A stretch of DNA of 32,774 nt from Desulfobacterales bacterium (GTDB lineage: Bacteria > Desulfobacterota > Desulfobacteria > Desulfobacterales > Desulfobacteraceae), in contig JAHOYS010000382.1 of assembly GCA_019038815.1 (NCBI GenBank), forward strand, positions 1 to 32,774, in the 5' to 3' direction. The notes below the pieces were generated by a model. The model saw only the letters and a list, made by a program, of their open reading frames with translations, searched no databases and was not told where the DNA came from. Positions 1 to 19,314 of this stretch are shown one piece after another. Made by a program: the position numbers and the translations under genes. Within the stretch, counting starts at the first letter, position 1, and the number at the start of each line of letters is the position of its first letter.

Positions 1-103
1 ACTCCCCCGATTTTACCTTGGAGCAGTGTAAAAAAAATTAGGCGGTGGATTTGGGGTCTTTTAACTGATTGCCTAAGCAGGATAATTGTGATAAAAAAAT
101 TTG

Positions 104-880
104 ATGACTCAAATTATCAGTATAGCAAACCAGAAAGGGGGCGTTGGTAAAACAACGACCTCAGTAAATCTTTCAGCCTCTCTTGCCAAAATCGGAAAAA
201 AAGTATTGCTTGTTGATTGTGATTCCCAGGCAAATGCCACAACAGGTATGGGAATTGATAAGCCATCCCTTGAAAATTCTCTTTATCAGGGACTTATTGG
301 CGAGGCCGGGGTTGATGACATTGTTTATCCGACAATGTTACCCAAATTGATGATGATTCCGGCCGATATCGATCTTATTGGATTTGAAATTGAGATGGTG
401 TCGGAAAGGGATAGAGAAAAAAAACTTAAAGATCTTCTGGGGCAGACAAAAGAAAGGTATGATTATATTATCATTGATTGTCCGCCGGCTTTAAGTTTGT
501 TGACATTGAATGCGTTTACAGCTTCAGATGCCGTCTTGATACCCCTGCAAAGTGAATTTTATGCCCTTGAAGGTCTGAGTCAGCTGCTGGATACCATAAA
601 ACGAGTCAAGTCATCTTTTAATCCCGGGTTGAAAATTAATGGAATTCTTTTGACTATGTATGATCAAAGAACAAATCTTGCTAAACATGTTGTTGAAGAT
701 GCGAGAAAATATTTCAAGGATATGGTTTTCAAAACAAAGATACCGCGTAATGTAAAGCTTGGAGAGGCACCGAGCTATGGATTGCCGGCAATATTATATG
801 ATAAACATTCAAAAGGATCAAAAAGTTATATTACTTTTGCAAGGGAATTTTTAACCCGGAGGTCACAAGCAAAAAAATGA
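104..880 (+). CDS. parA: ParA/Soj-type chromosome partitioning ATPase
   Basis: ParA-family Walker ATPase that acts with ParB in chromosome or plasmid segregation. The N-terminus carries the deviant Walker A motif KGGVGKTTT directly after the first beta strand (IISIANQ). A Walker B-like strand (YIIIDCPPALS) follows, and the 258-residue length is normal for chromosomal ParA. The ORF track begins at a TTG at 101, but the ATG at 104 places the Walker motif at the usual distance, so I use 104. No clear Shine-Dalgarno sequence precedes either codon. parB starts inside the parA stop codon, so the two are translationally coupled. I saw no parS-like palindrome (consensus TGTTTCACGTGAAACA) in the window. 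The first 103 bases hold no gene I can recognise. Confidence 0.95.
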   Translation: MTQIISIANQKGGVGKTTTSVNLSASLAKIGKKVLLVDCDSQANATTGMGIDKPSLENSLYQGLIGEAGVDDIVYPTMLPKLMMIPADIDLIGFEIEMVSERDREKKLKDLLGQTKERYDYIIIDCPPALSLLTLNAFTASDAVLIPLQSEFYALEGLSQLLDTIKRVKSSFNPGLKINGILLTMYDQRTNLAKHVVEDARKYFKDMVFKTKIPRNVKLGEAPSYGLPAILYDKHSKGSKSYITFAREFLTRRSQAKK

Positions 881-1746
881 CAAAAAAGAAAAAGAAAAAC
901 ACTGGACTGGGACGGGGAATTTCAGCACTGATTCCTGATGTTGAAACCCTTGAAGGCAACTCTGATTTTCTTATGTGCCCTGTTGGGGATATTGCACCTA
1001 ACAGGTATCAGCCCAGAACTGTATTCAGCCGGGAAGAACTTGACAGATTAAAGGAATCTATTGCACTGCGGGGTGTTTTACAGCCTTTATTAGTAAGGCA
1101 CCTTGATGACTCCTATGAGTTGATAGCAGGAGAGAGAAGACTTCGTGCCGCCAGGGAAGCTAATTTGACCCATGTGCCCGTGTTTGTAAAAAACTTGACC
1201 GATGAACAGGTACTGGAAGTTTCCATTATTGAGAATATCCAAAGAGAGGATTTAAATGTTCTTGAAGAGGCAGAGGCTTATCATCGATTGATTCATGAGT
1301 TTAATTATACCCAGGAAAAAGTTGCCAAAAAAATTGGAAAGAACCGTTCTACCATCGCAAATCTGATTCGCCTTAGAAGCCTTCCCCAGGTGATTAAAGA
1401 CAGTCTGATTGCCGAAAAAATATCTATGGGACATGCAAGAGCCCTGTTAGGGGCAGGTTCCCAGGAAAACCAGATTTATCTTTTTAAAATAGTCCTTGAA
1501 AAAGAGTTGTCTGTAAGGCAGACGGAAAAACTTGTCAACAATGTCAAACAAGAACCCCAAAGATTGCAGAAAAAAATATCTGCTGTAGAAAAGAAACTTC
1601 TTGAAGAGACCTGTTTAATCCTTTCCAATCGAATCAAATCCAACGTCAGGATTAAAAAGAACGGAGATAAAGGTAAAATAGAAATCAATTTTAAATCAAG
1701 AACAGAGTTTCAACGCCTGATCGATCTTTTGACTAATCTTTCATGA
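877..1746 (+). CDS. parB: ParB/Spo0J-type partitioning protein
   Basis: ParB-family DNA-binding CTPase, partner of ParA. The N-terminal box LGRGISALI is the ParA-interacting segment typical of chromosomal ParB. It is followed by the ParB/Srx domain with GERRLRAAR and the IIENIQREDLN segment (about residues 40-130), then a helix-turn-helix around KVAKKIGKNRSTIANLIRL (about 145-175). A basic C-terminal dimerisation domain ends the protein. The 289-residue length is normal. It overlaps parA by 4 nt at the start and overlaps the following ispH fusion gene by 4 nt at the end (ATGA), so the three genes form one translationally coupled operon. Confidence 0.95.
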   Translation: MTKKKKKNTGLGRGISALIPDVETLEGNSDFLMCPVGDIAPNRYQPRTVFSREELDRLKESIALRGVLQPLLVRHLDDSYELIAGERRLRAAREANLTHVPVFVKNLTDEQVLEVSIIENIQREDLNVLEEAEAYHRLIHEFNYTQEKVAKKIGKNRSTIANLIRLRSLPQVIKDSLIAEKISMGHARALLGAGSQENQIYLFKIVLEKELSVRQTEKLVNNVKQEPQRLQKKISAVEKKLLEETCLILSNRIKSNVRIKKNGDKGKIEINFKSRTEFQRLIDLLTNLS

Positions 1747-3458
1747 AAATAGTTGTCGCGAAAACCGCTGGATTTTGTATGGGAGTCCGGCGCGCTGTGG
1801 ATATGGTGTTGGATGCATCCAACTTGTCTTCTGACCCGATTTATACCTATGGTCCTTTGATCCATAATCCCCATGTCCTTGCCATGCTTGAAGAAAAAAA
1901 GATTTTCAGAATTGATAAAATCCCTGAAAAGGGGAGTGGTATTGTTCTTGTCCGGGCACACGGGGTTCCGCCGGACGATAAAAAAGCCTTGGAGGATGCC
2001 GGTTTTACTGTGATAGATGCGACCTGCCCCAGGGTGGTAAGGGTCCAGGTGATTATTAGTAAATATGCCCGGAAAGGCTATTCAACTATTATTATCGGAG
2101 ATGAGAAACACCCGGAAGTGGTGGGTCTTTTAGGCTATGCAAAAGGAAACGGGCATACCATCACATCCATAGATCAGCTTTCCACACTACCCAGGTTTAA
2201 AAATGCCATCGTGGTTGCCCAAACGACTCAGGATACGGGCTTTTATGATGGAATAAAAGCCTGGTGTGAGGCTCATGCACCTCATTATGAGATATTTGAT
2301 ACTATTTGTGGCTCCACTGAAAAAAGGCAGGCTGAAATCCGAACGCTTGGCAAGGAAAATGATGCGGTCGTTGTTGTTGGCGGGAAACAAAGCGGAAACA
2401 CAAAACGGCTGGCCCAGATCGCATCCCAGACAGGGAAACTCACAGCCCATATTGAGGATGTTACCCAAATTGATTATGAGAAATTGTCATCAGTCGGTTC
2501 TGTCGCGATAACAGCCGGGGCTTCTACACCAAACTGGATCATTAATGACGCATACGTTCAGATAGAAAACAACCTTCAACGGCAGCATCCTGCCCGGGTA
2601 CTTTTATTTTTAATCCGCGATTTCTTATTGAAAACCAATATAATGGCCGCAGCAGGCGCAGGTTTTTTGACCTATGCGTGTTCTGTACTTCAAGGGATTG
2701 ATCAAAATCTGCATCATGCTGTGATAGCCATGCTGTATGTGCTTTCAATGCAGATACTGAATAATTTATTCACTGTTAAGCCTGATAAATATAATCATCC
2801 CCAAAGGGCACTTTTTTATAAGAAAAATCGAGTGTGCCTGTGGTTTGTTGCTGTTTTATCAGGTGTGGCAGGTCTTAGCCTTAGCTTTATTACAACCGGG
2901 GCATTGTCTTTTTTTATTCTGTTTGTCATGAGCCTTTTGGGGTTGTCATACAATTTTAAAATCATTCCTTTACCATTAAAAAAAGGACAGATTGGCCGAT
3001 TAAAAGATATTTCCGGCTCAAAAACCATTCTGATTACCATTGCCTGGGGAACAGTCACCTGCCTTTTGCCGGCAGTGGCAAATCAAAGTAATTTGCTGTC
3101 TGTCGCAATGGTGTTCTTATTTGCTGTCGGCCTGGTATTTGCGAGAACAGCCTTTTTTGATATTCTTGCCATTCAGGGTGACAGAATTACCGGAAAAGAA
3201 ACCCTTCCCATCCTTTTAGGAGAAAAGGCAAGTTTTAGAATCATACAATATGTTTTGATAGCGGATATGGGTATTGTTTTTTTGACATTTTTTACCGATC
3301 TATTGGTAAACAAAGCTTTTTTTCTTGCTTCCATTCCCTTTTTTATGTTTTTGTTAATAAAATTTTTTCAAAAAGACAGCCTTATCCCAGGTGTGCATCT
3401 GGAATTTTTTATTGAATTTTTATTTATTGCCGCTGGATTGACAGCCATTTTAATCTAA
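1743..3458 (+). CDS. ispH: IspH (HMBPP reductase) fused to a UbiA-like prenyltransferase domain
   Basis: Residues 1 to about 280 are a complete IspH/LytB, the [4Fe-4S] enzyme that reduces HMBPP to IPP and DMAPP in the MEP pathway. The three cluster cysteines are C12 (GFCMG), C95 (DATCP) and C189 (TICGS). The substrate-pocket histidines are in IHNPH, RAHG and EKHPE. Residues about 285-571 are a multi-helix membrane domain aligning with UbiA prenyltransferases. NNLFTVKPDKYNHPQR matches the NDxxDxxxD...NxPxR motif and FDILAIQGDR matches the DxxxDxxGDR motif. Several metal-binding Asp are replaced: N341 and T344 in motif 1 and A476 in motif 2, while D348, D473 and D480 remain. The prenyltransferase activity is therefore uncertain. 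The gene overlaps parB at its start and converges with the acyltransferase gene, sharing 4 nt at the stop codons. Confidence 0.9.
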   Translation: MKIVVAKTAGFCMGVRRAVDMVLDASNLSSDPIYTYGPLIHNPHVLAMLEEKKIFRIDKIPEKGSGIVLVRAHGVPPDDKKALEDAGFTVIDATCPRVVRVQVIISKYARKGYSTIIIGDEKHPEVVGLLGYAKGNGHTITSIDQLSTLPRFKNAIVVAQTTQDTGFYDGIKAWCEAHAPHYEIFDTICGSTEKRQAEIRTLGKENDAVVVVGGKQSGNTKRLAQIASQTGKLTAHIEDVTQIDYEKLSSVGSVAITAGASTPNWIINDAYVQIENNLQRQHPARVLLFLIRDFLLKTNIMAAAGAGFLTYACSVLQGIDQNLHHAVIAMLYVLSMQILNNLFTVKPDKYNHPQRALFYKKNRVCLWFVAVLSGVAGLSLSFITTGALSFFILFVMSLLGLSYNFKIIPLPLKKGQIGRLKDISGSKTILITIAWGTVTCLLPAVANQSNLLSVAMVFLFAVGLVFARTAFFDILAIQGDRITGKETLPILLGEKASFRIIQYVLIADMGIVFLTFFTDLLVNKAFFLASIPFFMFLLIKFFQKDSLIPGVHLEFFIEFLFIAAGLTAILI

Positions 3459-6103: not shown

Positions 6104-9100
6104 ATGATTAGAAGAATACTGAATTCAAGACTTCCTTTAATGGTTTATAACCCTGTAAAGGTGTTTGATGTAAAGTATTTTAAAAAGATTTTCAACGCTG
6201 GCGCTCTTCCGGTATTTGATACAGAATTTTTAACCCATGACGATATACTTCAAAACGCCTTGTTGCTTTCCAAAGAAAAATTTAGTTTTGGTATCAGGCT
6301 TTCAACCCATGATAATGAGCTGATCGAAAAAATCAAACAGCAGCAGATGATGAATCTTGATCTTTTAATTTCCCCTCTTACAAAAGATGATACGCCTGCA
6401 GAATTCAGTAATTTCAGCGACACTAAAATCGTTCTTGAAATCAAGGACATTAATATCAATGACAGGATAAAAGCGGTATCTCCCCATGCCTTGATTTTAA
6501 AAGGAAATGAAGCCGGCGGAAAGGTTTCAAAATATTCTTCTTTTGTTTTGATGCAATGGTATTTGAAAAATAGTGAATTACCGATATTTATCCATGGCGG
6601 TGTCGGAAGATATACGGCTGCCGGTATGTTTGCAGCAGGTGTTTCAGGTCTTGTCATGGACAGCCAGTTTCTTATGACGGATGAAGCCCCGGTATCGGAT
6701 AATTTTAAAAAGCTTTTGGCCATGGTGGATGAAAGTGATTCCACTGAAATTAACTATAAAGGCAGCGACATTTACCGGGTGTTTGCAAAACTGGGTACTA
6801 AAATTGTTAAAGACCTGAAACTTGCCGCAGTTGAATTTGGTGATGATCCAAATGGCAGACAAAAGATTTATGAAGCCATCGCGGATAATATGGCAGCCTT
6901 TGACAACGAGGACACCCCGTTTATCCAGTCCCTTTTTTACCTGGGCCAGGATGGCGTATTTGCCAAGGATTTTGTAAAAGAGTCAACAAGTCTCAAAGAA
7001 ATTATTTCAAGTTTTTTCAAATCCATTGGTGAGAACTTAAATTTTATTGATAATAACGATCCCATAAAACCGGGTTCACCATTTGCCAAGGATCAGGGAA
7101 CCAAATTCCCGTTAATCCAGGGACCCATGGCAAATATTTCAGATAACTCTGATTTTGCAAATAAGGTTCTAAAAGAGGGAGCATTGCCGTTTTTTGCAGT
7201 GGGAAGTCTTCCTGAACAGCTGGCGGACGATATGCTCAAAGACGGTGCCAAAAAAGTAGATAATTTTGGTGCCGGACTTGTGGGGATTGAAGCGTTTAAT
7301 CCCGCGGTAAAACAACATCTGGACATGGTTAAAAAATATAAGGTTCCCTATGCTCTTTTTGCAGGAGGGATTCCTTCCCAGGCGGTAGAACTTGAAGAAG
7401 CAGGAACCAAAACTTATTTGCATACCCCATCAGTATCCATGATGGAAAATGCCCTGAAAAGCGGATGCAGACGGTTTATTTTTGAAGGCGGGGAAGCAGG
7501 CGGTCATGTGGGCACTCTTTCTTCCATGGTTCTGTGGGAAGATGCCATTGCTACATTGATCAATAAAAATTATGATCTTACTGGTTTATACCTGGTATTT
7601 GCCGGCGGTATCTCCACCTGTTTTGCATCATTTTTTATTTCAGGGCTCACATCCTTTCTTGCGGCTAAAGGGGCAAAAATCGGTATCCAGGTGGGAACTG
7701 CCTACCTTTTTGCCGATGAAATCGTGGCAACCAAAAGTATTAAACCTCAGTACCAGGAAATTATTATCAGGGAAAATGAGACCATGGTCATCGGCAAAAG
7801 CTTAGGGCTGGCATCCAGGACCGCGCCCACCGAGTTTGCCCGAAGGATGGTTGAAAATGAAACCCGGATGATGAAAAACAAGGAAAGCCTGAAAACAAGA
7901 AAGCGTGTCTTTGAAAAGAAAAATATAGGTTCGCTGCTGATAGGTGCAAAAGGGTTCCTGCCGGATTTTAAAAACCCCGGACCTGAGAATTACACCTGGT
8001 TTGAAGATGAAGAACACAAAGAAAAGGGCAATTTTCTTGTGGGGGACAGCCTGGCCTTTTTTGATCGGTCAGTCACTATAAAACAGATCCACGATAAATA
8101 CTTTGAAGCCAAATCAGCACTTTATACAAATATTAATTTTCTTGAAATATTTTCAAGTTCAAAAAATAAAATTAATGATGAAATTGCCGTGGTGGGTATC
8201 GGTTGTACCCTGCCGGATGCCGATGATCCGGACAGTTTGTGGGAAAATATTTTAAACAAAAAATATTCCATCAGCCAGATACCGGATTCAAGACTTGACC
8301 ACGATCTTTATTATGACCCTGACAAAAGTGCGGAAGATAAAACCTACACCACCCTTGCAGGACATGTAGACCATTTTGAGTTTGAGTGGGAACGGTTCGG
8401 GTATGCTGAAGGCAAAGAAAAAAGACTTTCCCGCAGTCAGAAAATGGTGTTGCAGACTGCATATAAGGCAGTTGAGAATGCAGGATTTCTGGGAGATGAT
8501 AATCGCCTGGCCTGTGATGATCCTGCAAGAACTGCCGTTATTATTGCCACCTGCCTTTCCAATGAGCTGGGAAATGACCTTCAGCTTAAATACTGGTATC
8601 CACAACTTGTTTCCATGATGGAGAAAACAGATGAATATCAGATCTTAAGTGATGAAGAAAAAGAGGGAGTCAAACAAGCTTTAATGGAAGGCCTGGAAGG
8701 GGAGAACAAAGGATATGATCCTGTCCATGGCATGCTTTTGAACATTGAAGCCTCAAGGATTGCCCGGCACTTAGGTATCCGGGGCGCAAATTATGTCGTG
8801 GATGCTGCCTGCGCATCCTCTGTCACTGCACTTGACGCTGCAACAGATGAACTTTTGTCCGGTGAACACGACCAGGTCATTGTGGGTGGGGTAAATACCA
8901 ATCTGACACCTGAAGCCTTTGTTGGATTTGCAAAAATGGGAACCTTGTCAAAGGTTGGGTCATTCCCTTTTGACGAGCGGGCTGACGGGTTCATCCTGGG
9001 AGAGGGTTCGGTTGTTTTTGTATTAAAAAGAATGAAAGATGCGATCAGGGACAAGAACCGTATTCTGGGTATTATCAATTCCATTGGTTCAAGTTCTGAC

Positions 9101-12100
9101 GGCAAAGGAAAGGCCATTGCCGCACCAAATCCAAAAGGGCAGGTATTAAGCGTCAGGCGGTGTTTTGAAAATATCCGGCCTGATATCACCCCGGAAGATA
9201 TCGGATTTATTGAAGCACATGGTACATCCACCACTATCGGTGATCAGGCAGAGCTTGAAACCTTGAATTCCATATATAAGAATGCCAGTGCCGGTATCAG
9301 TTCCATAAAATCTCAGATCGGTCACCTTTTAGGGTGTGCTGGATCAGCAGGGCTTTTAAAGGCATTATTAACTGTTAACAAAGGAATTTTGCCACCCAAT
9401 GGTCGATTTGAAACCCTTTCAAAAAATCATGATTTAAATGGATCATCCCTGTTCATTGTAAAAGATTCACAAGAATGGAAACCTGAAGGCAGCACATCCA
9501 GAAAGGCTGCTGTTTCTTCTTACGGGTTTGGCGGTATCAACTATCATATTGTTGTTGAGCAGATGACCCAGAGTTACAAGCAGATTCCCCGGGATATTTT
9601 TACCAACCCTGCCTATGATTTTAATGATGACAGAATTGTGGTTGCAGGCCTCGGGGTTTTCCTTCCGGGTGCAAAAAACACAGAGGAGTTCTGGGAGAAA
9701 CTTCAATCAGGGGAAAAACAATTGTCCCATATCCCGGCTGTCCAGTTTGACAATGATGCCTATGCAGATCTTGATAAAAATTCCAATTACAGGCTTCCCA
9801 AAGTAAATGCGGGTGTGGTCAAAGAACATAAGTTCAATAATTTGAAATACAGAATGCCCCCAATGATGGTAAAATCCATTGAAAGGGGACAGATCTTCGG
9901 GCTGGAAGCAGCCAGTGAGGCACTTGAAAGTTCAGGCCTGCTTGCGCAGCTGTCTGCCGATAATAAAGTCGGCGTCATTCTTGGTACCATTTCAGGAGAA
10001 CGCCAGAGCAAAAATATTATCAGGGTCAGAAAGCAATTTATCGGCAATATCATTAAAAATTGTTCCAGGATTGATTCTGCAAAACTCAACAGACTTTCAA
10101 AACAGGTTGTGGAATTCATCCGGGATACGATTCCGGAGAACAATGAAGATACCACCCCCGGGCTTTTATCCAATATTATCTCAGGCAGGATAACCAATTA
10201 TTTTGGTCTCAACGGGGCTAATTACGTGATTGATGCATCCTGTGCATCTTCCTCCATTGCCATAAGAAATGCAGCCAGGAATTTAAAACACAAAGATCTT
10301 GATTTTGTCCTTGCAGGCGGGGTCGACTGCAACCTGTACCCGGCAGTTCTCATGGCATTCAAACGCCTTGGCCTTTTGTCGGAAGGAGACTGTAACTTTT
10401 ATGATTCAAGGGCTGACGGGTATGTCATGGGCGAGGGCGCAGCTATCCATATTATGACCACCTATAAAAAGGCCAGAGAGTACAATATGGAGATTCTGGG
10501 CGAGATCAACGAAAGCTCTGTGCGCTCAAGTGTGCCGGATCATCTGCTTGCTCCTTCTGAACAGACCTTTGTATCCACCATAAACGAAACCTATTATAAA
10601 TCCGGGATCAGAAAGCAGGATATCAATCATCTGGATGTATTTGCATTTTCCAATATTTTTGGAGATATCGTTGAAAAGCAGGTGATCGAACATTGTTTTG
10701 ACCATGAAATGCATTGTGGAAACGTTAAATCCCAATTTGGATATTTTAAAGCTGCCAACCCGGCTGTTGCTTTAGCAAAGCTTATGCTCATGAACAAGAA
10801 GAGGAAAATTCTGCCCGACTTTAATTATAATTCCGAGCATTCCATTTTAAATGACAGCACCATTTTAAAGCCTGCCCAACAGATGATTGTAAAGTCCAAA
10901 GGGCAGCCCTTCAGGTTTGCGGCCAATGTCAACGGTATCGGCGGTAATCACTGCCATATGATCATGAGCACATTGCCGGCCCGGCTTGAAAGCCAGGAAG
11001 AGGTTGTGGAAGCGGAGTTCAAGGCAGCAGCTGGAGATGATATCGTATTAATAGATCATGCTTACTCTGCTGATAATATGGGTAAAAAATTGAGAATGGT
11101 CGCGCTTCTTTCCGGACAGGGTGCCCAGAGAAGCCGCATGATGAAGGAACTTTTCAAAAAAGATGACCATATCAGAAAAATAATGGAAAAAGGCGAAAAG
11201 ATTTTTGTTGAACAGCGTGGTTACTCTCTGCTGGAGTTGATGTTCGGCACGGATGATTCCATTAACTCAACACAGAATACTCAACCGGCAGTCTTCCTTT
11301 CTTCTGCCGCTGTTTACAGCCGACTGTCCCGGGAAGGATTTTCACCCGATTACTTCATCGGTCACAGTGTGGGAGAATACACAGCCCTTTTTTGCAGCGG
11401 CGTGCTTTCTTTTGACGATGCCATGCGTCTGATCATCAAACGCTCAGACCTTATGCATGAAGCCACGTTAAAGGTGCCGGGTAAAATCATGGTGGTATTT
11501 AAAAATGAAAAAGAGACAGGGCATCTGATCAGAAAAGCCTTTATTTCCAATATCTATATTACCAATAAAAATAGCGAAAAACAGACTGCTGTCTCAGGAA
11601 AGGCTGAGGATATTGATAAGTTCTGCACTTTTCTGACCCAGCAGGAGGTTTTTTACAAAAAGCTGAATCTTACAGGTGCCTTTCATACGCCGCTGTTGAA
11701 AGAGGCTTCACAAAAATTAAGGGAGTATCTGGATACGGTTACCTTTAATGATACCTGGTTTGGGAAAATTATTTCCAATACCACTGCAAGGCCATATCCT
11801 GAGAGGCCCGAAGATGTAAAAGATCTGCTGGCAAGACAGATTATCTCTCCGGTTGAATTTATTAAATCCATTGAGAATGTGTATATATCCGGCAGGACCC
11901 ATTTTATAGAGATCGGTCCATCAAGGCTGCTGGTGAATCTATTGAAAAATATTAATATCGGAGAATATGCCACAGCTGTTTCTGTGGATGCGAAAACTGG
12001 AGAAATCAAATCATTTGAAGAGTGTAGAAAATATCTCATAAGCTGCAATGCAATTTTTGAGACAAAACCTGTCCCTGTAAGCGGTCTGAAAATTACCCCT

Positions 12101-15100
12101 GAGAATAGAGAGGAGTTGCCAAAAATAGAAATGTCTGAAGATTTTGAATCCTTTAAACAGAATAATCAGGAACTGGTCGATCAGATCCTTTACAAGGAAT
12201 ATCAGCACCAGAAACGTCAATCTGCTATTAATGCCATTGAAAGATATGATTTTAATACCAACAAAATATTAATTTCAGGTGTTTCTGTAGGGCTTCCGGG
12301 CAAAGCAAGGCGCGTGTTTGCTGCCGATAATTTTGATGCTATTCTCAATGGCGAAAACTTTATTGATTCCCTGACAGTTGAAGCCCAGGAGAAAATTATT
12401 GATAAGAATATCACCAAACTTTATAAACAGCCTGATGGTAATGCAAGATTTGTCCAGATCACTAAAGCTGAAGATGTGATCCATCTGGCAGGACAGTTAG
12501 GGTATTTTAACCTCAATGATGAATACGGCATTAAAGAACAATATGATATCACCATGGCTATAGGTATTGCTGCCGGGATTGAAGCCTTAAAAGACGCGAA
12601 CATACCTCTTGTCATGCAGTATAAAAAGGTGAAAGACGGAAAGACCATGATTCCTGACGGGTTTGCTCTGCCCGAAGAGATGCAGGAAGAAACAGGGGTG
12701 ATTATTACATCGTTATGGCCCAATGGCGAAACCCTGCTGTCAGAGTTTGAAAAATATTTTTATGAGAAAATGTTTCTTAAACCCTATGAAGAGTTTGAAA
12801 AAATTTATTATTATCTCATGGAGAAAATAAAAGATCAGGATATTAAAGAACAGCTGACAGAGTGGTTTTTCAAGGCAAAGTCAAGAAAACGGTCAGATTT
12901 TGGTCCTTACAAGTTTGACAGGAATTTTCTGGCCAATGCCTGTCCTCTGGGGTCTGCCCATCTGGCTCAGATTATAAAGGCCAAAGGTCCCAACACGCTG
13001 GTAAGTTCTGCCTGTGCTTCCACTACTCTTGCCATTGGTATTGCTGAAGACTGGATCAGGGTTGGCCGATGTAAAAGAGTGCTTGTGATTGGTGGTGAGA
13101 ATGTGACTACTCCGAGTCAGAATCAGTGGGTGGGATCAGGATTCCTGGCACTTGGGGCCGCCACTATCAAAAAGAGAGTCTCGGAAGCAGCCAAGCCCTT
13201 TGATGAAGACCGTAACGGAACTATCCTGGGTTCCGGTGCTGTAGGTCTTGTCGTTGAAAGTGAAAGCTGTGCAAGGAAAAGAGGCATGAACGGCCAGTGT
13301 GAGATTCTTGGCACCCATATCGCCAATTCAGCTTTTCACACCTATAATATTGATGTGCCCCACATGTCCTATGAGATGAAAAAATTCATCAGTAAAGTGG
13401 AAAAACAAAATGGGATTGAGAAAGAAGAGTATGCAGACAAGCTCCTTTTCATGTCCCATGAAACCTACACTCCGGCAAGGGGAGGCAGTGCCGATGCTGA
13501 GGTAACTGTTCTTGAAACAACCTTTGCCGATCATTTGGACAGTATCTGCATATCCAACACCAAGGGATTTACAGGCCATACCCTAGGGGCGGCCATAGAA
13601 GATGTTGTACTGGTCAAGGCGCTCCAGAAAAGAAAAGCTCCCCCCATTGCAAACCTTCAGAAAATACCTGAGCATTTCAGAAAACTCAATTTTTCAGGCC
13701 AGCAGAAAATTAATTCTGAATATGGTCTTCATCTGTCTGCCGGATTTGGTTCTCATTTTGCTTTCATGTTTGTCAAACGGGTAGAGGAAAATCAGGTTGA
13801 AGGCAATGTTCGATATAAGAACTGGGTAAAACAGATCACCGGATCTGAAAATCCTGAACTTAAGATTATTGATAATACCCTTTGTGCTGTGGCCGGAGGG
13901 GAAGCCCTGCCGGTGTTACCAAAGAAAACAAGAAAAATTGTAAAACCGGCAATTACGATTCCTGCCATGCCGGCGGCGCCTGTCCCTGTTGCCGCAGTGA
14001 AAGAAACAGGCACGGCAGTTGAAACCAAACCTGTTGAAGAGACAGCCAAAGGCGTATCTGAAGGTGGCCCTGCTATTGAGCCTGCCATAAAAACAGTTAA
14101 GTCAATAATTGCCGAGCAGACCGGATATACTGCTGATATGCTGGAAGATGATCTGGATCTTGAAGCAGACTTGGGGATTGACACGGTAAAACAGGTTGAA
14201 ATTTTTGCCAAGGTGGCTTCCTATTTCAGCTTTTCAGTACCGGATGATTTAAAACTCCGGGACCTGAACACCATTGCCAAGCTGGCCGACTATGTCGTTA
14301 CAAAAACAGATACCCCAGTGATAGAAACAAAAATTTCTGCTCCTGATGTTCAGATAGATACCCCACCGACACCGGGAGCACCAATCCCCTCCACTGCCAT
14401 TGATACGGTCAAGGACGTTATTGCCGAGCAGACCGGATATGCGGTGGACATGCTGGAAGATGATCTGGATCTTGAGGCAGATCTCGGGATTGATACGGTG
14501 AAACAAGTAGAGATTTTTGCCAAGATCTCTTCCCATTTTGGTTTTCCGGTACCGGATGATTTAAAACTCCGGGATCTGAACACTATTGCCAAACTGGCCG
14601 GGTATATCCAGTCCAGATCCGGTGTGCCTGTTGAAGCGGAAAAACAGGAAGACGCACCAAAACCTGCGCCTGCAGCGGTTGATGAGCCGGCACAGGGTGA
14701 GGATGCAACCGCTGTTGTTAAAGAGGTGATTGCCGTCCAGACCGGATATGCGGTGGACATGCTGGAAGATGATCTGGATCTTGAGGCAGATCTCGGGATT
14801 GATACGGTAAAGCAAGTAGAGATTTTTGCCAAGATCGCTTCCCATTTTGGTTTTTCAGTACCGGATGATTTAAAACTCCGTGATCTGAATACCATTGCCA
14901 AACTGGCCGAGTATATCCAGTCCAGGGCTGGAGCTGTACAAGCGCCTCAAACAGAAGAAGCGACTGCTGTGGAAAACAATGAAGTTCCACCGGTAAGCGA
15001 CATCACCATCCCTTTAAATGAAGATGATGAATTTCCTGATCCTGCATCACCCATCAAACGGCTGATTGTAAGGGTCAGAGAATCCCAGATTCCTGAACTT

Positions 15101-17545
15101 TCCAAAAAGGATTTTACAGGGAAAAAGATCATTGTTTCCCTTGACAGCCACGGGTTTGCCAAAAAAATTATCGAAAAGATAAAAAAGAAAAAAGGCGAAG
15201 TCATTACCATTGGCGGCAAAGGCGCCGATTTTAAGTTTGACCTGACCGATGTCAAAGCCACGGAAAAGAGGGTGGAAGAATTTAAAGAAGTCTATCCGGA
15301 AGTGAACGGGTTCATTCATCTGTCACCACTTGATTACTATTTTGACAGGAAAGATGGAAAAGGTGATTCAGATGATGCTCTCAATACAAGTATCAAATCC
15401 TTTTTTGTCATGCTTAAAGCTCTGTTTAAAACCCTTGATCAAAAAGAGAATATCATCGGGACAATTTCATTCGATTCGGTTGTATTTCCATATATGGAAG
15501 GCTGCGGTGATATCCATCCCATGTTTGCAGGACTTTCCGGCCTTTTGAAAACCGTGAACAAGGAGATGCCGGACACCATGGTCAAGGTGGTGGACTTTTC
15601 TTATAAACAGCCCAAAAAGAGCACGGGAAGGATTGCAGATATATTCTTAAATGAGCTTCTTTGCGATGATACAAGATGCGAGGTGGGATATAAAAATAAA
15701 AAACGGTATGTCCTCTCCATGAAGCCTTCCATCGCAGATAAAACGCAACAAATCATATCTGAGAATGATACCATGCTGGTTACAGGCGGAGCCGGCGGCA
15801 TTACCTATGAAATCATTAAAAAAGTTGTTGAAAAATATAAGACCAACCTGATTATCCTGGATATCAATGATATTTACAGTACCGATCCGAAATATCTGGA
15901 TAAAGCATCTACCGGGGCAGACCTCATGGGTCTGCTCAGAGAGGATATGCCCGGGGTAAAACCCGTTGAAATCAAACGTGCCCTTGATCGCCTGATGCGG
16001 GTTCGGCAGTCACTTGAAAACATTGAATACCTTCAATCTCTGGGTGTCAGTGTTGAGTATAATTGTGTGGATGTAACCAATGCAAAAGCTGTTAAGGAGA
16101 CTGTGGACAAGTATGACAGGATCGACGGCATTTTCCATGCTGCGGGCATGGAAATGAGCCAGTTTATTCCTAAAAAAGAACTCTGGTCTTTTGAACTGGT
16201 TGTGGATGTCAAGGTCAAAGGCATGAGAAATCTTTTACAGGCCTTCAAAGACAGGGAGTATAAATACTTTTTTACTTTCTCATCGGTCACTGCCCGTTTT
16301 GGGAATGAAGGCCAGGTGGATTATACATCTGCCAATGATTTTCTCGGGAAGACGCTTTTCAGGCAGCAACAGCTCCATCCTGAAAGAAATTATAAAGTCT
16401 ATGCATGGACAGCCTGGGACGGCGTTGGCATGGCAACCAATCCAACCGTGAAAAAGGTGCTGGAAGAAAGAGGCATCCAGTTCCTTCCAATGGAACAGGG
16501 TATCAAGTTTTTCATGGCGGATCTCCTGGATAAAACAGACTCTGAAATGGTATTTTCAGGCCTTGATTATTCATTTGACAGGGACGGTCTTCTGGGAGAT
16601 CCTGAGAAAGTCCAATTTCCATTTCTGGGCGATCTGCTGGAAAAGACCCCTGCCGGAACTATCTATTCAAGAGTGCTGGACATGGACCGGGATGTCTTTC
16701 TCCATGATCATACCATGGAAGATGTGCCGCTTTTTCTTGGCGCAACCGGGATTGAAACCATGGCCGAAGTTGCAAGCTCCCTGTCCGAAGATAAATCGCA
16801 TTTTGTTGAATTAACGAATTTTCAGATTCCTTACGGGATCAAGCTTTTAAAGGGACGTCCAAAAGAACTTCTGATTTCAGGAAACAAAGGAAAAGACGGC
16901 TTGTTTAACTGCAGGATAACATCCCAGTTTAAAAATCCCCAAGGCCTTGTTATGGGGGAACCCAAACTTCACTATGAAGGGGAATACAGGTTTGCCGAAA
17001 AGCTTTTAAAATCAAAAAAGATCAAGCTGCCGGAATTCAACCCGGTTTCCCGGAAAGATGATATTGAAACCCTGATATATAATCCCAAACGGCTGTTTAT
17101 GTTCGGCCTTTTCAACACCATCACGGATATTAACTCCTTTGACGGTAAAATATTGATCACAACCGTGGAAGATAAAAGCCGAAAAGAGTTTTTTAAAGGG
17201 GTGAAAGATCCCAATTTTGTGGCTGCCCCCATCCTGCTTGACGCCATATTCCAGACTGGTGGATTACTTGAATTTTTTACCACCTCAAGGACAGTTCTGC
17301 CCTATAAAATAAAGTCCTTGAAGTTTTATAAGGCTGTTGAAAAAAATCGGGAATATTTCTGTATTACCCAGAAGATGGACTCAGGTGAAGAAACCAATAC
17401 CTATAACCTGCAACTGGTTGATAAAAAAGGAAATGTTTTTATCGAAGTGGACAGTTTTGAAATGGTAAAGCTCAACCGCCTTGATCCTGAGGACAGGATA
17501 GTTGACCTGGTTGATTTTTCGTTTTCCAAGGCAAAGGTAAATTAA
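6104..17545 (+). CDS. PUFA-synthase-like (Pfa-like) type I megasynthase, NPD-NPD-KS-KS-AT-KS-ACP3-KR-DH
   Basis: A single 3813-residue iterative-looking fatty-acid/polyketide synthase. Residues 1-230 are an NPD-like TIM-barrel half with the His of the EAGGH motif replaced (EAGGK, K140). Residues 330-600 are a second NPD/PfaD-like enoyl-reductase-type domain with intact EAGGH (H468). KS1 (690-1150) has C903, H1039 and H1074. KS2 (1175-1625) keeps C1380 but has F1513 and Y1547 in place of both His. AT (1660-1965) has GHSVGEY with S1755 and H1861. KS3 (2055-2560) is divergent, with C2304, H2452 (SHETYT) and H2492 (FTGHT). Three ACPs have Thr at 2694, 2798 and 2901, where LGIDS normally carries the phosphopantetheine Ser. 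KR has TGGAGG at 3227, S3394, Y3407 and N3411. DH (3525-3790) has H3536 (HDHTM) and D3713. Substrate and product are unknown. ATG at 6104 follows GGAG at 6093. No PPTase or dedicated release domain is visible. Confidence 0.92.
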   Translation: MIRRILNSRLPLMVYNPVKVFDVKYFKKIFNAGALPVFDTEFLTHDDILQNALLLSKEKFSFGIRLSTHDNELIEKIKQQQMMNLDLLISPLTKDDTPAEFSNFSDTKIVLEIKDININDRIKAVSPHALILKGNEAGGKVSKYSSFVLMQWYLKNSELPIFIHGGVGRYTAAGMFAAGVSGLVMDSQFLMTDEAPVSDNFKKLLAMVDESDSTEINYKGSDIYRVFAKLGTKIVKDLKLAAVEFGDDPNGRQKIYEAIADNMAAFDNEDTPFIQSLFYLGQDGVFAKDFVKESTSLKEIISSFFKSIGENLNFIDNNDPIKPGSPFAKDQGTKFPLIQGPMANISDNSDFANKVLKEGALPFFAVGSLPEQLADDMLKDGAKKVDNFGAGLVGIEAFNPAVKQHLDMVKKYKVPYALFAGGIPSQAVELEEAGTKTYLHTPSVSMMENALKSGCRRFIFEGGEAGGHVGTLSSMVLWEDAIATLINKNYDLTGLYLVFAGGISTCFASFFISGLTSFLAAKGAKIGIQVGTAYLFADEIVATKSIKPQYQEIIIRENETMVIGKSLGLASRTAPTEFARRMVENETRMMKNKESLKTRKRVFEKKNIGSLLIGAKGFLPDFKNPGPENYTWFEDEEHKEKGNFLVGDSLAFFDRSVTIKQIHDKYFEAKSALYTNINFLEIFSSSKNKINDEIAVVGIGCTLPDADDPDSLWENILNKKYSISQIPDSRLDHDLYYDPDKSAEDKTYTTLAGHVDHFEFEWERFGYAEGKEKRLSRSQKMVLQTAYKAVENAGFLGDDNRLACDDPARTAVIIATCLSNELGNDLQLKYWYPQLVSMMEKTDEYQILSDEEKEGVKQALMEGLEGENKGYDPVHGMLLNIEASRIARHLGIRGANYVVDAACASSVTALDAATDELLSGEHDQVIVGGVNTNLTPEAFVGFAKMGTLSKVGSFPFDERADGFILGEGSVVFVLKRMKDAIRDKNRILGIINSIGSSSDGKGKAIAAPNPKGQVLSVRRCFENIRPDITPEDIGFIEAHGTSTTIGDQAELETLNSIYKNASAGISSIKSQIGHLLGCAGSAGLLKALLTVNKGILPPNGRFETLSKNHDLNGSSLFIVKDSQEWKPEGSTSRKAAVSSYGFGGINYHIVVEQMTQSYKQIPRDIFTNPAYDFNDDRIVVAGLGVFLPGAKNTEEFWEKLQSGEKQLSHIPAVQFDNDAYADLDKNSNYRLPKVNAGVVKEHKFNNLKYRMPPMMVKSIERGQIFGLEAASEALESSGLLAQLSADNKVGVILGTISGERQSKNIIRVRKQFIGNIIKNCSRIDSAKLNRLSKQVVEFIRDTIPENNEDTTPGLLSNIISGRITNYFGLNGANYVIDASCASSSIAIRNAARNLKHKDLDFVLAGGVDCNLYPAVLMAFKRLGLLSEGDCNFYDSRADGYVMGEGAAIHIMTTYKKAREYNMEILGEINESSVRSSVPDHLLAPSEQTFVSTINETYYKSGIRKQDINHLDVFAFSNIFGDIVEKQVIEHCFDHEMHCGNVKSQFGYFKAANPAVALAKLMLMNKKRKILPDFNYNSEHSILNDSTILKPAQQMIVKSKGQPFRFAANVNGIGGNHCHMIMSTLPARLESQEEVVEAEFKAAAGDDIVLIDHAYSADNMGKKLRMVALLSGQGAQRSRMMKELFKKDDHIRKIMEKGEKIFVEQRGYSLLELMFGTDDSINSTQNTQPAVFLSSAAVYSRLSREGFSPDYFIGHSVGEYTALFCSGVLSFDDAMRLIIKRSDLMHEATLKVPGKIMVVFKNEKETGHLIRKAFISNIYITNKNSEKQTAVSGKAEDIDKFCTFLTQQEVFYKKLNLTGAFHTPLLKEASQKLREYLDTVTFNDTWFGKIISNTTARPYPERPEDVKDLLARQIISPVEFIKSIENVYISGRTHFIEIGPSRLLVNLLKNINIGEYATAVSVDAKTGEIKSFEECRKYLISCNAIFETKPVPVSGLKITPENREELPKIEMSEDFESFKQNNQELVDQILYKEYQHQKRQSAINAIERYDFNTNKILISGVSVGLPGKARRVFAADNFDAILNGENFIDSLTVEAQEKIIDKNITKLYKQPDGNARFVQITKAEDVIHLAGQLGYFNLNDEYGIKEQYDITMAIGIAAGIEALKDANIPLVMQYKKVKDGKTMIPDGFALPEEMQEETGVIITSLWPNGETLLSEFEKYFYEKMFLKPYEEFEKIYYYLMEKIKDQDIKEQLTEWFFKAKSRKRSDFGPYKFDRNFLANACPLGSAHLAQIIKAKGPNTLVSSACASTTLAIGIAEDWIRVGRCKRVLVIGGENVTTPSQNQWVGSGFLALGAATIKKRVSEAAKPFDEDRNGTILGSGAVGLVVESESCARKRGMNGQCEILGTHIANSAFHTYNIDVPHMSYEMKKFISKVEKQNGIEKEEYADKLLFMSHETYTPARGGSADAEVTVLETTFADHLDSICISNTKGFTGHTLGAAIEDVVLVKALQKRKAPPIANLQKIPEHFRKLNFSGQQKINSEYGLHLSAGFGSHFAFMFVKRVEENQVEGNVRYKNWVKQITGSENPELKIIDNTLCAVAGGEALPVLPKKTRKIVKPAITIPAMPAAPVPVAAVKETGTAVETKPVEETAKGVSEGGPAIEPAIKTVKSIIAEQTGYTADMLEDDLDLEADLGIDTVKQVEIFAKVASYFSFSVPDDLKLRDLNTIAKLADYVVTKTDTPVIETKISAPDVQIDTPPTPGAPIPSTAIDTVKDVIAEQTGYAVDMLEDDLDLEADLGIDTVKQVEIFAKISSHFGFPVPDDLKLRDLNTIAKLAGYIQSRSGVPVEAEKQEDAPKPAPAAVDEPAQGEDATAVVKEVIAVQTGYAVDMLEDDLDLEADLGIDTVKQVEIFAKIASHFGFSVPDDLKLRDLNTIAKLAEYIQSRAGAVQAPQTEEATAVENNEVPPVSDITIPLNEDDEFPDPASPIKRLIVRVRESQIPELSKKDFTGKKIIVSLDSHGFAKKIIEKIKKKKGEVITIGGKGADFKFDLTDVKATEKRVEEFKEVYPEVNGFIHLSPLDYYFDRKDGKGDSDDALNTSIKSFFVMLKALFKTLDQKENIIGTISFDSVVFPYMEGCGDIHPMFAGLSGLLKTVNKEMPDTMVKVVDFSYKQPKKSTGRIADIFLNELLCDDTRCEVGYKNKKRYVLSMKPSIADKTQQIISENDTMLVTGGAGGITYEIIKKVVEKYKTNLIILDINDIYSTDPKYLDKASTGADLMGLLREDMPGVKPVEIKRALDRLMRVRQSLENIEYLQSLGVSVEYNCVDVTNAKAVKETVDKYDRIDGIFHAAGMEMSQFIPKKELWSFELVVDVKVKGMRNLLQAFKDREYKYFFTFSSVTARFGNEGQVDYTSANDFLGKTLFRQQQLHPERNYKVYAWTAWDGVGMATNPTVKKVLEERGIQFLPMEQGIKFFMADLLDKTDSEMVFSGLDYSFDRDGLLGDPEKVQFPFLGDLLEKTPAGTIYSRVLDMDRDVFLHDHTMEDVPLFLGATGIETMAEVASSLSEDKSHFVELTNFQIPYGIKLLKGRPKELLISGNKGKDGLFNCRITSQFKNPQGLVMGEPKLHYEGEYRFAEKLLKSKKIKLPEFNPVSRKDDIETLIYNPKRLFMFGLFNTITDINSFDGKILITTVEDKSRKEFFKGVKDPNFVAAPILLDAIFQTGGLLEFFTTSRTVLPYKIKSLKFYKAVEKNREYFCITQKMDSGEETNTYNLQLVDKKGNVFIEVDSFEMVKLNRLDPEDRIVDLVDFSFSKAKVN
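14120..14924 (+). repeat. Three tandem acyl-carrier-protein repeats inside the megasynthase gene
   Basis: Three copies of a roughly 70-residue ACP module lie at a period of 103-104 residues, joined by Pro/Ala-rich linkers. Copies 2 (14432-14615) and 3 (14741-14924) differ at only about 9 of 184 nucleotides by my count, while copy 1 (from 14120) is clearly more diverged. All three read LGIDTVKQVEIF with an acg codon at the Thr. Confidence 0.9.
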
Positions 17546-18682: not shown

Positions 18683-18712
18683 TTGCATGTACCATTAGTT
18701 GTGCGTTATACT
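18683..18712 (+). promoter_or_regulatory. Putative sigma70 promoter of the toxin-antitoxin operon
   Basis: TTGCAT (18683-18688) and TATACT (18707-18712) are separated by 18 nt, 27 nt before the antitoxin ATG. The track's longer antitoxin ORF begins at the TTG of this -35 box, which argues against that start. Confidence 0.5.
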
Positions 18713-18739
18713 GTACAAAATTTATTTGAGGGGTGCAAA

Positions 18740-19021
18740 ATGCAAAAGCTGCGAATTGATCAAGATATAAAACCACTATCTGAAGTCAGAAAAGGTATGG
18801 CAACGTATATTAAACAAATCCATGAAACCAGAAGACCTTTGATTATTACTCAAAGAGGCAAAAGTGCTGCTGTACTAGTTGATGTTCACGAATTTGAAGC
18901 TATGCAAGAGAAGATTGACCTCTTATCCGATATTCACTCTTCTCTAAGTCAATTGGAAAAAGGTGAGGGAATCAACCATAGAGATGCTAAAAATATGCTA
19001 CTTGAGCGAATTTCCAGATGA
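18740..19021 (+). CDS. Type II antitoxin, Phd/YefM family
   Basis: A 93-residue Phd/YefM-type antitoxin that should bind its own operator through the N-terminal half and neutralise the toxin through the C-terminal half. The N-terminal fold signature is visible: KPLSEVRKGMATYIKQI followed by RPLIITQRGKSAAVLVD. A charged helical tail covers about residues 55-93. The ORF track starts 19 codons earlier at a TTG lying in the likely -35 box. The ATG at 18740 has GAGGGG at 18729-18734 and gives the normal family length. Its stop codon overlaps the toxin start (ATGA), the usual antitoxin-first arrangement. Confidence 0.88.
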   Translation: MQKLRIDQDIKPLSEVRKGMATYIKQIHETRRPLIITQRGKSAAVLVDVHEFEAMQEKIDLLSDIHSSLSQLEKGEGINHRDAKNMLLERISR

Positions 19022-19314
19022 AAATAATTTGGTCTCCATTTGCTATAAACAAAGCATCAGAAATAGCTGATTACATCGCTCAAGACAAACCTTCTGCAGC
19101 CAAACGATGGATAAATGAGGTGTTCATAAAAGTTGAGCAACTTAAATCCTCCCCTCAAATTGGTCGAGTTGTGCCTGAAATTTCGGATAATAAGTTTAGA
19201 GAGCTTATCTATGGCAATTACCGAATCATTTACCGTATGGAAATAAAACAAATTTCAATTTTGACTATTCGACACGAAAAACAAATATTACCCATAGATG
19301 AAATCAAGACATAA
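19018..19314 (+). CDS. Type II toxin, ParE/RelE superfamily
   Basis: A 98-residue toxin of the ParE/RelE fold. It shows the helix ASEIADYIAQDKPSAAKRWI near the N-terminus, the PQIGRVVPE turn, and the FRELIYGNYRIIYRM strand pair that is conserved in ParE-like proteins. The segment ends ILTIRHEKQILP. Family knowledge offers gyrase poisoning (ParE) or ribosome-dependent mRNA cleavage (RelE). The Phd-like partner and RELIYGNYRIIYR block favour the ParE/RelE-like mixed group without deciding between them. The stop codon TAA is the first three bases of the second 17-bp boundary repeat, as often happens where a cassette gene runs into its attC site. Confidence 0.88.
   Translation: MKIIWSPFAINKASEIADYIAQDKPSAAKRWINEVFIKVEQLKSSPQIGRVVPEISDNKFRELIYGNYRIIYRMEIKQISILTIRHEKQILPIDEIKT

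Follow-up and report, generated by a model that had tools for sequence, protein, structure and literature searches.

Forty-seven IspH-UbiA fusions, termed 'Rosetta stone' hybrids, have been described in sulfate reducers, with the UbiA part classed as PT_UbiA_5 of unknown function and two DXXXD repeats stated to be present in the hybrids (Rao et al., 2015; PMC4746011). Prenyl transfer or membrane localization was proposed for these proteins and the Desulfobacula toluolica hybrid was modeled, while an active full-length protein was not obtained, the product being mostly truncated (Rao et al., 2015). The IspH-RPS1 fusions likewise combine IspH with an extra C-terminal domain in anaerobes (PMC4746011), although the partner there consists of ribosomal S1 repeats and not of a membrane domain. 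Among related enzymes, AfUbiA coordinates Mg via N68, D72, D198, and D202 (PMC4106721), and the UbiA-type terpene synthases bear the signature NXXX(G/A)XXXD plus QDXXDXXXD, enzymes in which a conserved Tyr, the final Asp of motif I, and all three Asp of motif II are essential (PMC9835599).

The window analyzed here, meaning the whole stretch of 32,774 nucleotides from a bacterium of the Desulfobacterales, carries a fusion gene that resembles the published hybrids in architecture, length, domain order, and Desulfobacterales hosts (PMC4746011). The ORF at 1743-3458 on the forward strand encodes 571 amino acids from an ATG start to a stop codon, with a complete IspH at the N-terminus and a UbiA-fold membrane domain at the C-terminus. 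An earlier note on this DNA had proposed an IspH fused to a UbiA-like domain with partly lost Asp residues that might anchor IspH, channel its product, or catalyze a different reaction, and had suggested collecting such fusions, comparing these residues across them, and looking for a separate intact UbiA in the genome. The features of the locus were as follows:

101-880, forward strand: parA (AAA_31, E = 8e-68), upstream of the fusion gene and in the same direction
877-1746, forward strand: parB (HTH_ParB, E = 4e-36), its TGA stop overlapping the ATG of the fusion gene
1743-2570, forward strand: IspH (LytB) domain, amino acids 1-276, from Pfam LYTB, TIGR00216, and invariant residues
2571-2594, forward strand: linker, amino acids 277-284, between both domain matches, short and modeled with high confidence
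2595-3455, forward strand: UbiA-like membrane domain, amino acids 285-571, from Pfam UbiA and Foldseek matches
2760-2786, forward strand: motif I, N340-N-L-F-T344-V-K-P-D348, with N68 kept, D72 replaced by T, and D76 kept
2949-2951, forward strand: Y403, the probable equivalent of catalytic Y139 of AfUbiA, judged by the GLxY motif before the (K/R)D loop
3003-3026, forward strand: K421-D-I-S-G-S-K427-T428, the (K/R)DIPGSKT loop conserved in the fusions
3159-3182, forward strand: motif II, D473-I-L-A476-I-Q-G-D480, with D198 replaced by A and D202 kept

The IspH half matched Pfam LYTB (PF02401) at amino acids 3-273 (E = 3e-84; 282.9 bits against a cut-off of 24.5) and TIGR00216 (IspH; 272.8 bits against 187.9), and was the sole IspH of its genome. 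Residues C12, H41, H73, C95, H123, E125, T161/T162, C189, S217, N219, and S261 were invariant in 32 fusions; from E. coli IspH, we take C12, C95, and C189 to be the three cluster Cys and the remaining invariant His, Glu, Thr, Ser, and Asn residues to be catalytic. The membrane half matched Pfam UbiA (PF01040) at amino acids 322-542 (E = 3.5e-14; 53.1 bits against a curated cut-off of 34.2), as did the membrane part of 32/32 fusions. An AlphaFold2 model built from 32 aligned fusions, containing no ligand, reached a pLDDT of 89.6 and a pTM of 0.83 and displayed the IspH domain, a short linker, and then a bundle of long helices. Foldseek with this model identified solved structures of IspH (3dnf and 3ke8) and of UbiA (7bpu, 4tq3, and 4od5), the latter matched through the fold search only; a profile of the UbiA-like domain found no homologue among PDB sequences. 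The proposed IspH-UbiA architecture was borne out by Pfam, the model, and Foldseek, and the Pfam and Foldseek matches excluded a C-terminal domain of another family.

A profile-profile alignment with separate UbiAs set the register of the metal-site motifs as N340=N, T344=D, D348=D, A476=D, and D480=D, which excluded Asp motifs at other positions. Compared to the AfUbiA ligands N68/D72/D198/D202, the window protein reads N340/T344/A476/D480 and keeps 2/4, leaving both Mg-ligand pairs incomplete: N340 is kept and T344 stands for D72 in motif I, and A476 stands for D198 and D480 is kept in motif II. D348 corresponds to D76 of AfUbiA, a residue without direct contact to Mg in that enzyme. The residues had been correctly described in the earlier note, including the remaining D348, D473, and D480, and the partial loss of Asp stood for T344 and A476, but not for N341, since the Asp after the Asn in 'NDxxDxxxD' is not among the AfUbiA Mg ligands and in the genome's own intact UbiA this position is R (NRIVDADID). 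As read from the alignment, the true ligand losses in the window are those of D72 and D198. The conserved Tyr near the cleaved bond (Y139 equivalent) is present in the window as Y403 and in 126/128 dereplicated fusions (under 80% identity), with K/R at 421 in 119/128 and at 427 in 127/128. K421 and K427 of the loop are probably basic residues on the diphosphate side, and K421 may be equivalent to AfUbiA K146.

The window protein shares with AfUbiA/ApUbiA and MenA/UbiA/MqnP (PF01040) the fold, the equivalents of N68, D76, Y139, and D202, and the G(K)xTLP region after motif II, but lacks the D72 and D198 equivalents, has a longer loop before (K/R)DIPGSKT, and is fused to IspH. It also departs from the description of the hybrids by Rao et al. 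(2015): the C-terminal UbiA-like fusion in Desulfobacterales was found, whereas TxxxD and AxxxD stand where two DXXXD repeats were stated, and the NxxxTxxxD and DxxAxxxD of the window's family leave neither DXXXD complete in the UbiA register. While the fusion itself has been known since 2015, the published two-DXXXD statement fails for the window's lineage.

Across the fusions, the losses were clade-wide and stepwise and not peculiar to one sequence. All four ligands were kept in 42/128 dereplicated fusions if E at 476 is counted (NDDD in 32 and NDED in 10 at 340/344/476/480), compared with 28/30 control UbiAs, i.e., separate copies of which nearly all came from 24 genomes of the same phylum; L223 is one of the 30 and was counted as missing a ligand. 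D was found at 344 in 72/128 fusions, D or E at 476 in 82/128, and D480 in 126/128. Outside the order, 344 was D in most fusions and NDDD was the commonest state (28/61), NGDD was found in 10/11 fusions from the rest of the order beyond the window's family, and the window's family displayed N-(T/A/S)-(A/E/G/Q)-D, with T at 344 in 23/34 rows and A in 6/34. The state in the window's genus was N-(T/A/M/S)-A-D in 21/21 fusions; L023 of genome G008, from this genus, reads NxxxTxxxD and DxxAxxxD. The metal site is mostly intact outside the order, with D72 (usually to Gly) lost in the order and D198 lost as well in the family. A 553-amino-acid fusion (L240, genome G239) had a membrane half so diverged that neither Asp motif was recognizable. 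On a tree from which the motif columns were left out, position 344 needed eight changes, 476 nine, and D480 one. The motif I Asp was at 344 alone in 69 fusions, at 348 alone in 42, at both in three, and at neither in 14, an exchange that was phylogenetic with almost no independent repeats on the tree, and independent co-variation of 344 and 348 was unsupported. Erosion of motif I in every fusion was likewise rejected, given that 72/128 retain D344 and that the Asp after the Asn is no Mg ligand.

Standard catalysis is weakened since Mg ligands have been lost. The proposal of Rao et al. (2015), a conventional Mg-dependent prenyltransferase supplied by IspH, would suit the UbiA family match and fold, the N/D/(D,E)/D ligands kept in 42/128 fusions mostly outside the order, and the GT2 glycosyltransferase gene lying directly downstream of the fusion in 32/94 loci with a close downstream gene, nearly all in clades keeping D344. 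Such an enzyme is nevertheless very unlikely, as 2/4 essential ligands are gone in the window, IspH yields C5 units whereas long chains are the substrates of most UbiAs, and menaquinone is already served by a separate UbiA. This single separate intact UbiA of the window's genome, as sought by the earlier note, is of the MqnP/UbiA-like type, lies beside UbiX-like and radical-SAM-like genes (neighbors named by eye), and from its sequence could cover menaquinone prenylation; a separate UbiA/MenA is also found in the genomes of the published hybrids (PMC4746011), and the window's genome further encodes two polyprenyl synthases. A downstream GT2 gene was found in 0/16 loci with the NGDD state. In several of the GT2 loci (L157, L172, L140, and 29 others) the gene overlaps the fusion by 1-10 bases, and tRNA-dihydrouridine-synthase-like genes lie upstream in many.

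The remainder of the cavity was maintained. Seven residues (N340, D348, R355, Y403, D480, E486, and T487) were invariant in 34 family members and K421, K427, R468, and D473 were kept in at least 94% of them, while 344 and 476 drift. The domain is under purifying selection, with a median dN/dS in the genus of 0.151 (UbiA part) and 0.106 (IspH) at dS near saturation, and values that were higher but still low in the closest pairs (about 0.28 and 0.20, respectively). Motif loss through recent decay was rejected by the low dN/dS and the invariant residues. A dead UbiA kept for its helices alone, as a pure membrane anchor, would be consistent with the repeated loss of Mg ligands on the tree and with fusion L240 lacking any recognizable motif; yet the family shows no variation at the cavity residues besides 344 and 476 and D480 persists in 126/128 fusions, and we regard this reading as doubtful.

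The collected fusions indicate that the architecture is near-universal in the window's lineage, with the domain present in 53/58 relatives, 182/194 genomes of the class, and 91/247 of the phylum. A scan of GTDB genomes identified at least 542 stretches encoding relatives, and among the 80 listed, most were Deltaproteobacteria/Desulfobacterota by name and one was Zixibacteria. In 189/189 collected loci with a whole domain, it was fused to IspH. Genome searches revealed no convincing unfused copy, the few short frames looking like contig ends (part of them checked), and two weak unfused matches (L252 and L253) grouped among the separate UbiAs in the tree, which contained no sister unfused UbiA. 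The role of the domain is therefore tied to IspH; the domain is probably old and vertically retained. In L028 (genome G012) an apparent frameshift within the UbiA part, perhaps an assembly error, divides the fusion between two frames, and the N-terminal extensions of the 756-904-amino-acid frames of family f68 seem to be unrelated upstream sequence, read through in GC-rich DNA.

IspH can do without the domain, as eight genomes of the order encode a standalone IspH and lack it. These standalone IspHs are nested inside the fusion clade, on a starred branch with 24 fusions and eight standalone copies, and in their genomes (mostly drafts; G119 in two contigs) the domain was absent genome-wide with no remnant downstream of IspH. 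This pattern would agree with loss of the domain as well as with replacement by a related gene. In L239 and L242 (G153 and G175), the standalone IspH is followed by polyprenyl-synthase-like and DXS-like genes as named by eye.

The explanation we favor, with about an even chance of being correct, is that the UbiA domain tethers the fusion to the membrane, retains an isoprenoid-diphosphate pocket in altered form, and is not a standard prenyltransferase. The gene product would be a membrane-bound IspH, with the N-terminal half predicted from its sequence to make IPP and DMAPP and the UbiA-fold half probably keeping it at the cytoplasmic face of the membrane. With both metal sites incomplete, the UbiA domain of the family would most likely not perform standard two-Mg prenyl transfer, while its polar cavity may still bind a ligand that is probably an isoprenoid diphosphate and would serve docking, handing-on, or feedback. 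Among the options of the earlier note, anchoring alone was weakened by the invariant cavity residues, leaving anchoring with ligand binding or an altered chemistry. Against the tether with a pocket, the invariant active-site residues exceed the needs of a tether and would suit an enzyme of altered chemistry as well, the four ligands are complete in many relatives outside the order, which may be active, and the invariant residues may serve folding only.

An altered enzyme would use a rearranged metal site to ionize a prenyl diphosphate, as in the UbiA-type terpene synthases, or add C5 from the DMAPP of IspH to an acceptor, which we consider unlikely. The fusions of the order outside the window's family share NxxxGxxxD, DxxDxxxD, and the Tyr with Fma-TC, EriG, and Tps1A (PMC9835599), the motif I Asp is at 344 or 348 and rarely both (69/42/3), and D348 and Y403 are invariant in the window's family. 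The window protein, in contrast, has T and not G/A at 344 and A476 in place of the middle Asp of motif II, and is bacterial, fused, and outside any terpene gene cluster. Its NxxxTxxxD departs from NXXX(G/A)XXXD, found in most order-level relatives, and its DxxAxxxD from (Q)DXXDXXXD, which these relatives display as DxxDxxxD without the Q. As the window deviates from each motif at one position and the 344/348 shift is essentially phylogenetic, this likeness is a lead and not a membership; a short motif match can also arise by convergence. No terpene or carotenoid neighbors were recognized in the window, and squalene/phytoene synthase was absent from 46/47 genomes including that of the window. 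More specifically for Desulfobacterales, it is conceivable but rather improbable that the UbiA half was rebuilt as a non-prenyltransferase, terpene-synthase-like or hemiterpene enzyme using the diphosphates made by the adjacent IspH in the membrane, with the motif I Asp moved from 344 to 348 and the family further changed at 476.

Ten Desulfobacca-type loci (L092, L094, L095, L099, L100, L105, L121, L125, L132, and L134) have a CruF-like gene (carotenoid hydratase family) on the strand opposite to the fusion and upstream of it; an HpnG-like phosphorylase accompanies this gene in several. A lycopene elongase transferring C5 to a carotenoid, as suggested by this neighbor, was rejected as a general role by the absence of squalene/phytoene synthase in 46/47 genomes.

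In the window, the ATGA at 1743-1746 overlaps the parB stop with the ispH-ubiA start, which suggests possible translational coupling of chromosome partition genes with an isoprenoid gene; ParA/ParB were near the fusion in about a sixth of the loci. Further downstream, a single 3813-amino-acid ORF (6104-17545, forward strand) contains three ketoacyl-synthase stretches, an acyltransferase, several phosphopantetheine sites, a KR, a dehydratase, and a nitronate-monooxygenase-like (enoyl-reductase type) part, and is a predicted large polyketide/polyunsaturated-fatty-acid-type synthase. A ParE-type toxin gene (19018-19314, forward strand) is preceded by a 112-amino-acid ORF (18683-19021) that could encode its antitoxin.

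No function has been assigned to the fusion since its publication in 2015. Its metal site is eroded stepwise by clade while the rest of the cavity is invariant, which argues against the published plain-prenyltransferase idea for Desulfobacterales. This erosion offers three forms to compare: the four-ligand fusions outside the order, the order-level NxxxGxxxD, and the NxxxTxxxD/DxxAxxxD of the window. If the chemistry of the domain is new, a membrane enzyme using the product of its own IspH would be present across a whole bacterial order.
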